Shown here piece by piece: positions 12,295 to 16,760 of a DNA stretch of 32,790 nt. Made by a program: the position numbers and the translations under genes. The stretch is from a bacterium (GTDB lineage: Bacteria; Chloroflexota; Dormibacteria; Aeolococcales; Bog-877). The notes below the pieces were generated by a model. That model saw nothing but the letters and a program-made list of their open reading frames with translations. It did not search any database and was not told the origin of the DNA. The stretch is from NCBI GenBank assembly GCA_021816695.1, contig JAKAXE010000018.1, positions 1-32,790 of the forward strand. Reading direction: 5' to 3'. Each line of letters starts with the position of its first letter. Position 1 is the stretch's first letter.

Positions 12295-13695
12295 TCAGCC
12301 CGCTGTCTCCCCCGCCGAGACCAACTCCCGGGCGCGCTCCAGGGCCCAGGTCGGCTGCAGCGTCGGCACAAAGTCTCCCGTCCGGGGATCCACCTCGTAG
12401 TCTAGCCGGGGGCCGCGCGCCGCCAGTTCCGCCACCGCGGAGAGGAAGTACTCCACCTCCGGGCGCGTCGTCCCCAGGCCCAGGCTGGCGCGAACCGCTC
12501 CCGGAACCGCCGAATGGTCGCCCTGAGCCAGTCGTGTCCGGATCTCCTCCGCGCCCTGCTCGGGCACCGACAGGAGGTGGAGCATCAAGGGATGGGCGCA
12601 GAAGCAGCCGTGGCGCACCCCGATGCCGTACTCGGCGCTCAGCGCCGCGGCCACCAGGCTGTGCTCCTGACCCTCGAGGTTGAAGGAGACCACCCCGGTG
12701 CGCTCCTTGGCCCCGGGCCAGATCGCATAGACCCGCACCCCCGGGATGGCTTGGAGCCCGGAGCGGACCTCGGCACCGAGCGCAGACTCCTCGGCCCACA
12801 CGCGGTCCATCCCGTACCGGTCCAGCTCGGCGGCAGCCACCGCCATGGCGACCGCCCCGAGGACGTTGGGGGAGCCGGCCTCCTGGCGTGCCGGCAGCTC
12901 GGACCACTGCACGGAGTCACGGGTGACGAAGTCCACCGCGCCCCCGCCCCGCAAGTACGGCTCGCGCCGGGCCAGCCAGTCCGGGCGACCGATCAGGATC
13001 CCGGCACCGTAGGGGGCGTACATCTTGTGCCCGGACGCCGCCAGGTAGTCGGCGTCGAGGCGGGCGAGGTTGATGGGCAGGTGGGGTGCGATCTGCGCCG
13101 CGTCCACCAGCACCCGGACCCCGAAGCGGTGGGCGACATCCACGAGTTCGTGGAGGGGCCAGAGCTCCCCGGTGACGTTGGAGGCCCCGGTCACCGCGAC
13201 GAGGTCAACCGGCTGCCCCCTCTCGAGCTCCGCGGAGAGCGCGGAGATGGCCGCCTCGGGGCTCTCCGGGATGGGGAGGCAGACCGCTCGCAGTCCCTCG
13301 CGGCGCCAGGGCAGGAGGTCGGCGTGGTGCTCCGAGCAGAAGGTCAGAACGGAGCTCCCCGGCGGCAGCGCCGAGGCCAGGAGGTTCATCGAGTCGGTGG
13401 TGTTCCGGGTGAAGACGGCCACGTCCCCCTCCCGAGCTCCGAAGAAGCTGAGAAGGCGCTTGCGGGCCGCTTCGTAGGCCGCGGTGGAGACCTGGGACTT
13501 GAAGCCGGCCCCCCGGTGGACGCTGCTGTAGTAGGGCAGCATTCGCTCCACGGCGCTGGCCACCCGGCAGAGAGCCGGAGTGCTGGCGGCATAGTCCAGG
13601 TTCACGTAGGGGCGCTCCCCGCCGGTCAGGAGCGGTGCGGAAACCCCGGCGCCGCACAGCCCTGGCCTTGCCGGAACCGATCCACCCTCACACAA
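12295..13695 (-). CDS. class V aminotransferase, cysteine desulfurase-like (SufS/Csd type)
   Basis: A 466-residue PLP enzyme. Key residues: His123 in SEHHADLLPW (stacks on PLP), Asp198 and Gln201 in VLVDAAQIAPH, Schiff-base Lys224 in SGHKMYAPYG, and RHGCFCAHP with Cys366 at the SufS active-site cysteine position. Presence of that Cys supports cysteine desulfurase or selenocysteine lyase chemistry rather than kynureninase-like chemistry. The protein is about 60 residues longer than SufS, mainly at the C-terminus. The TTG start at 13695 overlaps the regulator stop by eight bases and has GGGGGAG upstream. No other Suf genes are here, so a role in degrading a sulfur-containing substrate is more likely than Fe-S assembly. 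Confidence 0.85.
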   Translation of the reverse strand: MCEGGSVPARPGLCGAGVSAPLLTGGERPYVNLDYAASTPALCRVASAVERMLPYYSSVHRGAGFKSQVSTAAYEAARKRLLSFFGAREGDVAVFTRNTTDSMNLLASALPPGSSVLTFCSEHHADLLPWRREGLRAVCLPIPESPEAAISALSAELERGQPVDLVAVTGASNVTGELWPLHELVDVAHRFGVRVLVDAAQIAPHLPINLARLDADYLAASGHKMYAPYGAGILIGRPDWLARREPYLRGGGAVDFVTRDSVQWSELPARQEAGSPNVLGAVAMAVAAAELDRYGMDRVWAEESALGAEVRSGLQAIPGVRVYAIWPGAKERTGVVSFNLEGQEHSLVAAALSAEYGIGVRHGCFCAHPLMLHLLSVPEQGAEEIRTRLAQGDHSAVPGAVRASLGLGTTRPEVEYFLSAVAELAARGPRLDYEVDPRTGDFVPTLQPTWALERARELVSAGETAG

Positions 13696-14392
13696 GGCCG
13701 GACATCTCCCCCAGGGGCAACGCGATCGGCCGGGTGGTGACGTCGTCGCTGGACACCAGGGCGTCGATCACCATCCGCTGGGAGGCCCTCACCTGGGCCA
13801 CGGCCACCCGGCGGGCCTCCTCGGCGTCCCCGGCGAGGATCGCCTGGAGCAGGTCGCGATGCTCGTGCACGATCTCGTCGGCTCTGGAACTGAGGAGGAG
13901 CCCGATCCGGAACAGCCGCTCCATCTGCACCAGCATCACCTCCAGGATGGTGGTTAAGCGGAGGTTCCCCGACGCCCTTCCCACCATCAGGTGGAACTGC
14001 GTGTTGGCCTCCAGGAAGCGGTCCACGCTCCCGGTGTCCTCGGGTGAGTAGGTGCTGGTGCAGAGTTCCTCCAGCGCCCGCAGGTCGGAGAGGCCCACCG
14101 CCTGGGCCGCGGCCAGGGCCGCCGCCTCCCCCTCCAGCAGGACCCGGAGGGCGAAGAGCTCGCGGGTGTCCTTTATGGTGACATCCGAAGCGCGGTATCC
14201 CGCCCCCGGCGCGAGGTGGACGAACCCCTCCTGGCGCAGCCGGGCCAGCGCCTCGCGCACCGGCGTCTTGCTGAGCCCCAGCTGCAGGGCGAGCTGGGCC
14301 TCGGTGAAGCTGCTCCCGGGGGCGATCTCCAACCTCGTGATCCGCGAACGGATCTCCGCGTATACGGTATCTGCTAATGACTCATTTGGCAT
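13688..14392 (-). CDS. FCD-type GntR transcriptional regulator (copy 2)
   Basis: A 234-residue FadR-subfamily regulator, the paralogue of the protein at 8217-8921. The winged helix includes SSFTEAQLALQLGLSKTPVR, and the FCD domain includes VQMERLFRIGLLLSSRADE, which both copies share. Differences concentrate in the recognition region (AQLALQ versus ARIAAD), around residues 93-150 of the FCD domain and at the extreme C-terminus, consistent with different operators and ligands. It heads operon 2 (aminotransferase, binding protein, OsmC). The ATG is preceded by CGAT, exactly as in copy 1, and there is no clear Shine-Dalgarno sequence. Confidence 0.92.
   Translation of the reverse strand: MPNESLADTVYAEIRSRITRLEIAPGSSFTEAQLALQLGLSKTPVREALARLRQEGFVHLAPGAGYRASDVTIKDTRELFALRVLLEGEAAALAAAQAVGLSDLRALEELCTSTYSPEDTGSVDRFLEANTQFHLMVGRASGNLRLTTILEVMLVQMERLFRIGLLLSSRADEIVHEHRDLLQAILAGDAEEARRVAVAQVRASQRMVIDALVSSDDVTTRPIALPLGEMSGLV
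14360..14365. promoter_or_regulatory. candidate GntR operator core inside gene start
   Basis: GTATAC within the palindrome CGTATACG (14359-14366), about 27 bases into the regulator gene. It matches the position of the 12-bp palindrome in the paralogous gene. It is a weaker palindrome than that one; the operator role is inferred. Confidence 0.3.
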
Positions 14393-14498: not shown

Positions 14499-15098
14499 TC
14501 AGGGAACGTCTGGGTAGAGCACGAAGAGCCCGCACACCCGGCCCTCGGGGTCGAACGCCACCCGGCCCTTCATGGGGCCGCGCTCGAAGGCCAGCGGGAC
14601 GTCCACCACCTGGTGGGTGCCCCGCAGCTCCACTCTGGGCTTGCCCATGGTGAGCAGCCGGCCGGACAGCTCCTCAACCTTGCCCCAGGCCGAGGCCAGC
14701 CCCGGGGCGTCCAGCCGCTCCTTCATGGGCTGGTCGAAGCGCCCGACCAGCTGCTGCCCCTCCCCTGACGACCAGAGCCGCAGCACCTCCAGGCCGTCGG
14801 CCGCCCGGCCGGCCACCTCCTGCTCCTCCATGGCAGTCTCCCTGCGGAACCGCTTCTGGGCCCCCTGTCTCGTGATCCGCAGCACCTGGCCGATCTCCGA
14901 CCAGGTGTGCCGGTCAGCCCGGGCCGCGGCGACCAGGCCACGGGTCGCGTCGGCGGCGAGTCCTTCCAGGCTCAGGGCGGCGGTGAGCGCCCCCAGCGAC
15001 GAGCCCCCAGGACCCTGGCGCAGGGCCCGAGCCACCACCGCGGCGTTCTCCTCCAGCATCCCCGCCAGCACCTCGGGGTCGATCGGCCTCTGCTCCAC
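14499..15098 (-). CDS. helix-turn-helix protein with DUF3887-like C-terminal domain
   Basis: A 199-residue protein. Residues about 55-87 contain a helix-turn-helix resembling sigma region 4 (TWSEIGQVLRITRQGAQKRF). Residues about 100-195 resemble the DUF3887 fold, a small NTF2-like domain (RLLTMGKPRVELRG, then VDVPLAFERGPMKGRVAFD). The gene is transcribed away from a 21-bp palindrome that covers its -35 box and that of the divergent gene at 15175, so it is the natural candidate to bind that site. The GTG start lies six bases after TAGGAT, so the mRNA should be leaderless. The domain call is by pattern; the ligand of the C-terminal domain is unknown. Confidence 0.75.
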   Translation of the reverse strand: MEQRPIDPEVLAGMLEENAAVVARALRQGPGGSSLGALTAALSLEGLAADATRGLVAAARADRHTWSEIGQVLRITRQGAQKRFRRETAMEEQEVAGRAADGLEVLRLWSSGEGQQLVGRFDQPMKERLDAPGLASAWGKVEELSGRLLTMGKPRVELRGTHQVVDVPLAFERGPMKGRVAFDPEGRVCGLFVLYPDVP

Positions 15099-15104
15099 CA
15101 GCCG

Positions 15105-15132
15105 ATCCTAACCCGCACAGCCGGGTTGTCAA
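15105..15132 (-). promoter_or_regulatory. promoter of helix-turn-helix gene (leaderless)
   Basis: On the minus strand TTGACA (15132-15127), a 16-base spacer and TAGGAT (15110-15105), followed by exactly six bases and then the GTG start. The transcription start should coincide with the start codon. The -35 box lies in one arm of the 21-bp palindrome. Confidence 0.75.
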
Positions 15133-15146
15133 CCATTGGTTGACAA
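15126..15146. promoter_or_regulatory. 21-bp perfect palindromic operator shared by divergent promoters
   Basis: The left arm TTGTCAACCA and its exact reverse complement flank a single central T. Each arm contains the TTGACA -35 box of one of the two divergent genes. The palindrome spans about -28 to -48 of the minus promoter and -29 to -49 of the plus promoter, so a dimer bound here would affect both equally. The likely binder is the helix-turn-helix protein encoded at 14499-15098. Confidence 0.75.
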
Positions 15147-15168
15147 AGTCCGGTGCCGGGTGTATGGT
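15140..15168 (+). promoter_or_regulatory. promoter of PH-like gene (leaderless)
   Basis: TTGACA (15140-15145), a 17-base spacer and TATGGT (15163-15168), followed by exactly six bases and then the ATG at 15175. This is a near-consensus housekeeping promoter with its predicted start site at the A of the ATG. There is no Shine-Dalgarno sequence. Confidence 0.8.
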
Positions 15169-15174
15169 CGGCCC

Positions 15175-15540
15175 ATGACCGAATATGAGATCGAGGGCGA
15201 CACTCTCAAGCTGACGGTGGAGGGCATGGACAAGGTGTGGTCGCTGCGCAGCCACCTCTCGATCCCCCTCAGCGACATCACCGACGCGAGGGCCGACCCG
15301 GAACGGGGCGCAGGGGCGCTCACCGGAGTCAAGGTGGCAGGCGCGCGGATCCCGGGAGTGCTCCAGGCGGGGACATTCGTGGACAGCGAGGGGATGGTGT
15401 TCTGGGATGTGCACCGCCCCGGGCACGCCATCGTCATCTCCCTGGAGCACGAGCACTACAAGCAGCTGATCATCGACGTGGCCGACCCCGCCACCGCGGC
15501 CCAGGAGATCTCGGAGGCCGCCCGCAGAGCCCGAGGCTGA
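15175..15540 (+). CDS. small PH-like protein of unknown function
   Basis: A 121-residue soluble protein, mostly beta strands with a C-terminal helix (PATAAQEISEAARRARG), resembling small bacterial PH-like domains. I do not recognise a characterised family. Visible segments include LTVEGMDKVWSLRSHLSIPL and AIVISLEHEHYKQLIIDVAD. An ATG 13 codons upstream lies within the promoter and is rejected. The gene diverges from the helix-turn-helix gene and shares its operator. It is followed after 51 bases by the metallo-hydrolase gene, with which it may be co-transcribed. Confidence 0.8.
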   Translation: MTEYEIEGDTLKLTVEGMDKVWSLRSHLSIPLSDITDARADPERGAGALTGVKVAGARIPGVLQAGTFVDSEGMVFWDVHRPGHAIVISLEHEHYKQLIIDVADPATAAQEISEAARRARG

Positions 15541-15591: not shown

Positions 15592-16230
15592 ATGCTGGAA
15601 GGCTTCACCTGGTTCAAGCAGTCGGCGTACCGCTGGCAGGGTGACGGGCTCACGGTCTACATCGACCCGTGGGAGGTGACGACCACGGACGTGGCCGACC
15701 TGATCGTCATCACCCACGCCCACTTCGACCACTTCTCGCCCCCGGACATCGAGAAGGTGAGCGGGCCGCGGACGGTGGTGGTGGCCCCCCATGACATCGC
15801 CAAGGAGCTGTCCGGCAACGTCACCGCCGTGGCCCCGGGGGAGGTCCTGGAGGCCGCCGGGGTCCATCTGGAGACCGTCCCCGCCTACAACGTGGTGGAG
15901 GAGCGGCTGGAGGCCCACCCCAAGGCCAACGGCTGGGTGGGGTATCTCCTCACCCTGGGCGGGCACACCTACTACCACGCCGGGGACACCGACCGGCTGC
16001 CGGAGCTGGAGCGGCTGCGCACCGAGGTGGCCTTCCTGCCCATCGGAGGCACCTACACCATGGATGTGGGCGAGGCCGCCGGGCTGGCCCGGGCCATGGC
16101 CCCGCGCCTGGCGGTGCCCATGCACTACGGCTTCGTGGTTGGCAGCCGTGAGGACGCCGAGACCTTCCGGGCCAAGGCGGCCCCGGTGGAGGTGCGCACC
16201 CTGGATCCGGTCCACCCCTTCACCCAATGA
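15592..16230 (+). CDS. metallo-beta-lactamase-fold hydrolase (UPF0173/UlaG-like)
   Basis: A 212-residue MBL-fold protein. The metal motif THAHFDHFS (His42, His44, Asp46, His47) is intact. The third His may lie in the segment before [11 protein letters not shown], the bridging Asp is in [12 protein letters not shown], and the last His is in VPMHYGFVV. The short single-domain length and the [18 protein letters not shown] segment resemble UPF0173/UlaG-like hydrolases of unknown substrate. The ATG has GGGGG upstream and a possible own -10 (TATCCT at 15555-15560). Its stop overlaps the methylglyoxal synthase start (ATGA), so the two are translated together. Confidence 0.88.
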
Positions 16231-16760
16231 GGGCGGAGGGGGGCCACCAGGAGGGTCCTCCCGCGCAGGATAGCTCGCCGCCCCTGCGCATCCCGGCTGG
16301 CGGGGGCGCCCAGGAGAAGGAGGCACGGGTCCTGGCGGTCGGGCTGGTGGCCCACGACCACAAGAAGCAGGATCTGGTCGAGTGGGGCCGGTTCAACCGG
16401 GGCAGCCTCAGCCCCCATCGGCTCTACGCCACCGGGACCACCGGCCGCCTGCTGGAGGCCGAGCTGGGACTCCCGGTGCAGTGCCTGCTCAGCGGTCCCC
16501 TGGGAGGTGACCAGCAGATGGGCAGCCTGATCGCCGACGGTACCATCGACCTCCTCATCTTCTTCTGGGACCCGCTGGAGCCCCAGCCCCACGATCCGGA
16601 CGTCCGCGCCCTGCTGCGGATCGCCGCCGTCTGGAACATCCCGGTGGCGACCAACCGCGCCTCGGCGGACTTCATCATCTCCTCGCCGCTGATGCGCTCC
16701 AGCTACCGCCGGCTGGTCCCCGACTACAGCGCCCACCAGGCCCGACTCGAGCGGGACTGA
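16227..16760 (+). CDS. mgsA: methylglyoxal synthase
   Basis: Converts dihydroxyacetone phosphate to methylglyoxal and phosphate, a bypass of lower glycolysis. The 177-residue protein carries the family residues: His43 in [11 protein letters not shown], Asp95 in [11 protein letters not shown], and Asp115, His122 and Asp125 in the [19 protein letters not shown] region, then [14 protein letters not shown]. About 33 extra residues precede the conserved first strand ([11 protein letters not shown]). The start at 16227 is set by the ATGA overlap with the metallo-hydrolase gene. Coupling to an MBL-fold enzyme invites the idea of a methylglyoxal-related hydrolysis, but the neighbour is not a typical glyoxalase II. 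Confidence 0.95.

Follow-up and report, generated by a model that had tools for sequence, protein, structure and literature searches.

The window (the whole stretch of DNA that was analyzed, 32,790 nt) belongs to the metagenome-assembled genome (MAG) of an uncultured soil bacterium of the Dormibacterota. At 14499–15098 on the minus strand it encodes a 199-residue regulator, in which a helix–turn–helix (HTH) domain of the ClpC2/RelI type is fused to DUF3887, a domain of NTF2-like fold. The predicted DNA-recognition helix (RQGAQKRF...) spans residues 77–88 (14835–14870, minus strand), is helical in the AlphaFold2 model and is nearly identical to TRQAAQKRF in ClpC2. The DUF3887 domain, a putative ligand sensor located with Pfam and Foldseek, occupies residues 109–191 (14526–14774, minus strand). 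The divergent partner gene, predicted to be regulated, encodes a small PH-like protein of 121 residues (15175–15540, plus strand). It is followed on the same strand, after a gap of 51 nt, by the gene for a metallo-β-lactamase-fold (MBL) hydrolase (15592–16230) and, with an ATGA overlap, by a methylglyoxal synthase (MGS) gene (16227–16760), both probable members of one operon. A gene for a GntR/FCD protein (13688–14392) adjoins the regulator on its other side. A role of the locus in anti-phage defense was considered and dropped, as PADLOC returned no match.

The regulator scored 31.4 bits against DUF3887 (PF13026), just under the gathering cut-off of 31.8 bits. It was assigned to the family on the score of its closest public orthologue (L055, 93% identical), which at 35.7 bits is above the Pfam cut-off, and on the NTF2-like fold. 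In Foldseek, the top PDB match of the C-terminal domain was the DUF3887 structure 4hyz (E = 9.9e-5). The AlphaFold2 model has an all-helical N-terminal half and an α+β C-terminal domain (mean pLDDT 85.5, pTM 0.54). Profiles, AlphaFold2 and Foldseek bore out the initial annotation, which had read this gene as encoding an HTH protein with a DUF3887-like domain. Identity with EstD (NCBIfam) was rejected, the match being weak and reflecting the DUF3887 region. For the 121-residue protein, Pfam matches were below threshold throughout (DUF356, bPH_5), and PH domains ranked first, with weak matches, for its structure model (pLDDT 72).

Between the two genes lies a perfect palindrome, TTGTCAACCATTGGTTGACAA, at 15126–15146. 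Its 10-nt arms are 100% complementary about a single center base (TTGTCAACCA-T-TGGTTGACAA, 21 bp), and it is the predicted operator, assigned to neither strand. The core, TGTCAAC-N5-GTTGACA (15127–15145), matches the published ClpC2 operator CGTCAAC-n5-GTTGACG (PMC10030653). The regulator promoter, on the minus strand, consists of TTGACA (15132–15127, in the left arm), a 16-nt spacer, TAGGAT (15110–15105) and six nucleotides ahead of the GTG start codon (15098–15096). The right promoter, on the plus strand, consists of TTGACA (15140–15145, in the right arm), a 17-nt spacer, TATGGT (15163–15168) and six nucleotides ahead of the ATG at 15175. Both this order of elements and the placement of the two TTGACA boxes (15127–15132 and 15140–15145) in the palindrome arms had been proposed in the initial annotation and were confirmed. 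A promoter consensus scan of 2.6 kb recovered the two divergent promoters and one weaker site, while shuffled sequences gave 0.1. The operator is seen to overlap the −35 boxes. The six-base geometry, which is conserved in relatives, suggests that both divergent genes are transcribed without leaders.

Apart from the one at 15126–15146, the window contains no perfect 10+1+10 palindrome; a Markov background predicts 0.18 per window. The 21-bp site is also the sole match with up to three mismatches in the 2.49-Mb genome, and at that threshold no further sites of a larger regulon were found. A half-site at C125:9882 (one mismatch) has no link to a relevant gene. The genome contains one regulator of the HTH–DUF3887 family and one operator. 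In a whole genome, chance could account for such a palindrome taken alone, but not for its position over the two −35 boxes and its conservation.

Conservation was assessed first within the Dormibacterota. In all seven genomes with the divergent gene pair, TGTCAA-N7-TTGACA is retained along with the two −10 boxes, and six bases separate each of these boxes from its start codon; the −10 box of the regulator promoter, with its 6-nt gap, follows TASSAT in 7/7. The initial annotation had made its proposal depend on the palindrome being kept ahead of orthologous gene pairs, and it was kept in these seven. In two further genomes (G009 and G017), where a PLDc_N–ABC transporter gene set separates the regulator from the PH-like gene, each of the separated genes retains an operator. 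There the regulator has two tandem copies, and the PH-like gene has one at exactly −48. In G008, an additional exact operator stands upstream of the PLDc_N–ABC gene set. PH-like orthologues with a regulator nearby carry the operator at −48 or −49 in nine of nine cases, in two of which the regulator is 2 kb off. The exact operator was found in none of the nine PH-like orthologues with full upstream sequence and no regulator nearby, several of the compared genomes being incomplete MAGs; one of these nine is from G012, in which the regulator is truncated at a contig end and the PH-like gene is on another contig. Across 101 genomes of the class, the exact TGTCAA-N7-TTGACA motif occurred in 12 places, compared with one for the reversed control. 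Nine of the 12 are directly upstream of a regulator orthologue, and a tenth precedes a PLDc_N–ABC transporter operon.

A search based on protein sequence only identified 80 relatives of the regulator, mostly from Actinomycetota and Dormibacterota. The strict motif GTCAA-N7-TTGAC occurred 45 times near these genes (−300 to +30 of the regulator) and six times in 753 kb of flank. The broad motif YGTMAA-N7-TTKACR, which was set after viewing the upstream sequences, gave 113 near sites (68 loci) and six far sites, an enrichment of about 540-fold; many of the relatives are Streptomyces near-copies, and neither set of counts represents independent events. Nevertheless, the operator spans the deepest splits of the tree. 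For the strict motif, arm spacings of 0–20 other than 7 were nearly empty in the 80 relatives. The far broad sites were at PH-like genes (L061 and L062), at a PLDc_N–ABC gene set (L060), at a β-lactamase gene that immediately precedes the regulator (two sites in L088) and just inside an aligned start (L102). Tandem copies were 27–29 bp apart in 44 of 45 successive pairs, and in 49 loci the last copy ended 1–3 nt ahead of an in-frame start codon.

A rival reading dispenses with the regulator and takes the palindrome as two strong −35 boxes placed back to back, the symmetry arising from TTGACA facing TGTCAA. The arms, which do not vary, coincide exactly with the −35 hexamers, both promoters are near consensus, and −35 function partly explains the conservation of TTGACA. 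Yet the spacing is fixed at exactly 7 with other spacings nearly empty, and in G001 and G008 T7:A13 has symmetrically replaced the inner pair C7:G13. Moreover, in G009 and G017 the site stands upstream of a PH-like gene on its own; it is missing where the regulator is missing, and occurs in Actinomycetota as tandem copies beside start codons, with no divergent promoter pair. On these grounds the back-to-back reading is very unlikely. Chance was likewise rejected on the fixed N7 spacing, the copies away from divergent promoters and the joint loss with the regulator.

The window has no second, start-proximal operator of the kind typical of the family; its single copy is at −35. Tandem ORF-proximal copies, typical although not universal for clpC2, are present in most relatives. 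The window, with its single operator on the −35 boxes, is thus a reduced version of a two-operator layout common among relatives. As an exception within the family, a sub-branch with the helix RQAVLQRF or RQAALQRF (L069, L072, L075, L078, L080, L083 and L086) comprises Dormibacterota and one Chloroflexi-labelled member. The canonical operator was not found upstream of the genes of this sub-branch. A direct repeat ending in GGTAAGGTACCTTGACA stands where the operator would be, and may be a diverged operator.

The closest functional precedent is mycobacterial ClpC2, a dimer of which represses its own gene through CGTCAAC-n5-GTTGACG (Taylor et al. 2023, PMC10030653). In that system the operator lies 1–2 nt ahead of the ORF, is often repeated and overlaps the −35 and −10 boxes; the transcript is probably leaderless, and cyclomarin A relieves repression (PMC10030653). 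The profile of the HTH–DUF3887 family matched RelI (PDB 9sdc, 1.2e-16). Of ClpC2 it matched the N-terminal fragment (8ADA, 5.3e-5) but none of the C-terminal chains. The 199-residue regulator thus has a ClpC2/RelI-type N-terminal dimerization/HTH domain, and YGTCAAC-N5-GTTGACR is present upstream of its own gene. The invariant R60 of the family alignment corresponds to R57 of ClpC2. The recognition helix reads T[RK]QAAQKRF in clpC2 orthologues and TRQGAQKRF in the window, and clpC2 genes in eight genomes were shown to carry the same operator, usually just ahead of the ATG. The RQGAQKRF helix is paired with C7:G13, as in ClpC2, while RQAAFQRF is found mostly with G7:C13; this pairing is confounded by descent across loci, with ClpC2 and the window clade in agreement.

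ClpC2 (Rv2667 and its M. smegmatis homologue) resembles the window regulator in its homologous N-terminal domain, nearly identical recognition helix, operator core including C7:G13, operator placement over a promoter and the leaderless geometry predicted for both. The two proteins are from different phyla. The clpC2 operator adjoins the ORF, whereas the single operator of the window is at −35 and is common to two divergent promoters. The regulator is not ClpC2 proper, because its C-terminal half is DUF3887 and not the ClpC1-NTD-like, cyclomarin A-binding sensor domain of ClpC2.

In seven genomes searched both ways, 26 of 33 genome-wide broad-motif sites, assigned by coordinates, were at a clpC2-like or HTH–DUF3887 gene, compared with 17 scattered sites for the reversed control. 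In Streptomyces carpinensis (G107:C5:12398-12444, near L143), a further paralogue of ClpC2 type has a tandem operator pair to itself, as does the first, and private sites thus seem to accompany each family member. The palindrome might instead belong to a different regulator, for instance the GntR/FCD protein, whose gene adjoins that of the HTH–DUF3887 protein both in this window and in closely related genomes. In the genome collection, however, the two genes are side by side in just three loci, all from close relatives. The operator tracks the HTH–DUF3887 gene across phyla, and ClpC2, a protein that shares this HTH, binds the operator of clpC2 (PMC10030653). Ownership by the GntR/FCD protein, whose gene is not conserved together with the site, or by another regulator is highly improbable.

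It is very probable that both −35 boxes are blocked through the palindrome by an autorepressor of the ClpC2 type, with DUF3887 as its sensor. The operator would be bound by the 199-residue protein through its ClpC2-type dimerizing N-terminal HTH, the dimer reading TGTCAAC-N5-GTTGACA. As each arm of the operator is the −35 box of one promoter, a single bound dimer would exclude RNA polymerase from the two promoters at once. The regulator is predicted to repress its own leaderless gene and the leaderless PH-like gene, and the MBL and MGS genes are probably repressed along with the latter. Much as cyclomarin A acts on ClpC2, a ligand in the DUF3887 pocket would release the regulator. Activation or dual regulation was weighed against repression. 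The regulator is encoded divergently and, as we infer, NTF2-like sensors could switch either way. Nevertheless, the operator lies directly over the −35 box, an occlusion position, and ClpC2, the precedent within the family, acts by repression (PMC10030653). An activator or dual role is accordingly given little credence.

Predicted autoregulation by the HTH–DUF3887 protein is strongly supported by the linkage of operator and regulator and by the ClpC2 precedent, in line with the initial annotation, which had named the left gene product as a candidate autoregulator. The annotation had further placed a PH-like/MBL/MGS gene set under its control. For the PH-like gene, predicted control is well supported by operator linkage; for the MBL and MGS genes, the proposal did not gain such support, and co-regulation is suggested by position in the operon layout.

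Two other groups of proteins are related to the regulator. The RelI antitoxin family (Rv2664) has the same HTH (PDB 9sdc, E = 1.2e-16). In the available text of PMC13284704, DUF3887-fused RelI homologues are noted as mostly stand-alone genes, and no inverted repeats are reported upstream of relSI. In RelS–RelI a RelS toxin gene is the neighbor, unlike at the window regulator. A RelS–RelI toxin–antitoxin pair was rejected for this locus, as the 199-residue protein carries DUF3887 and is flanked by the PH-like and GntR genes, with no toxin-like gene. The DUF3887/NTF2-like proteins (PDB 4HYZ) share the predicted C-terminal fold and a proposed small-ligand pocket (PMC3924330). Described DUF3887 members are mostly secreted or membrane-anchored, whereas in the window DUF3887 is fused to a cytoplasmic HTH.

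In the available text of literature mentioning DUF3887, no operator for the HTH–DUF3887 branch was found, and searches on the operator sequence and on leaderless genes of Dormibacterota returned nothing relevant. The locus had been put forward as a possibly undescribed switch. This holds in part: there appears to be no earlier description of the HTH–DUF3887 branch, of the operator that goes with it or of the divergent arrangement, but the kind of switch is known, with operator type, promoter overlap, leaderless geometry and autorepression published for ClpC2 (PMC10030653). The present analysis offers an operator and a testable mechanism for a widespread branch that the available literature mentions just as stand-alone fusions, and ties it to the drug-responsive ClpC2 switch. 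For the Dormibacterota, known here from MAGs alone, it predicts a two-promoter switch with a defined 21-bp site.

The comparison also bears on ClpC2 itself. Its DNA-binding region was inferred from the C-terminal arginines R185 and R189, its crystal fragment ends at residue 72, and R57A impairs dimerization and repression (PMC10030653). The predicted ClpC2 recognition helix, the second helix of its HTH, lies just past residue 72, where the fragment stops. Since the operator is common to proteins that share just the N-terminal domain, the N-terminal HTH should read the DNA in ClpC2; for the mycobacterial protein, the prediction is that reading of the common operator must fall to the domain that the two proteins have in common. 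We lean toward a broader proposal, in which the ClpC2/RelI HTH would be a modular, private autorepressor domain across Actinomycetota and Dormibacterota, with one operator code, interchangeable sensors (ClpC1-NTD-like or DUF3887), targets in the cell envelope or antibiotic response, and DNA reading in ClpC2 by the N-terminal HTH rather than by the C-terminal arginines. If this is true, the code YGTMAA-N7-TTKACR would be tuned by those residues of the recognition helix that follow RQ, and the targets would be PH-like, PLDc_N–ABC transporter and ORF12-type β-lactamase genes.

Neighboring genes were surveyed in the relatives. In Actinomycetota, a PH-like protein (sub-threshold bPH_5) is encoded directly downstream of the regulator in L064, L073, L085, L089, L090, L093, L094, L099, L109, L110 and L125. 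An hhalign probability of 61% and weak PH-domain fold matches are only suggestive of homology between these proteins and that of the window. A class A β-lactamase-like gene adjoins the regulator in L071, L081, L082, L088, L091, L092, L102, L112, L127, L129 and L132. The protein from L129, the one that was scanned, has an ORF12-type N-terminal domain. These neighbors suggest, for some of the family, a role connected with the cell wall or with antibiotics. In addition, the Actinomycetota relatives L079, L092, L112, L127, L129 and L132 have a zinc-ribbon-like CxxCG...CRSAARR segment upstream of the operator and in frame with the regulator, so that the operator would itself be translated, as V[KN]xxLT. 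The regulator would then have an extended isoform, or else a leaderless start inside the frame.
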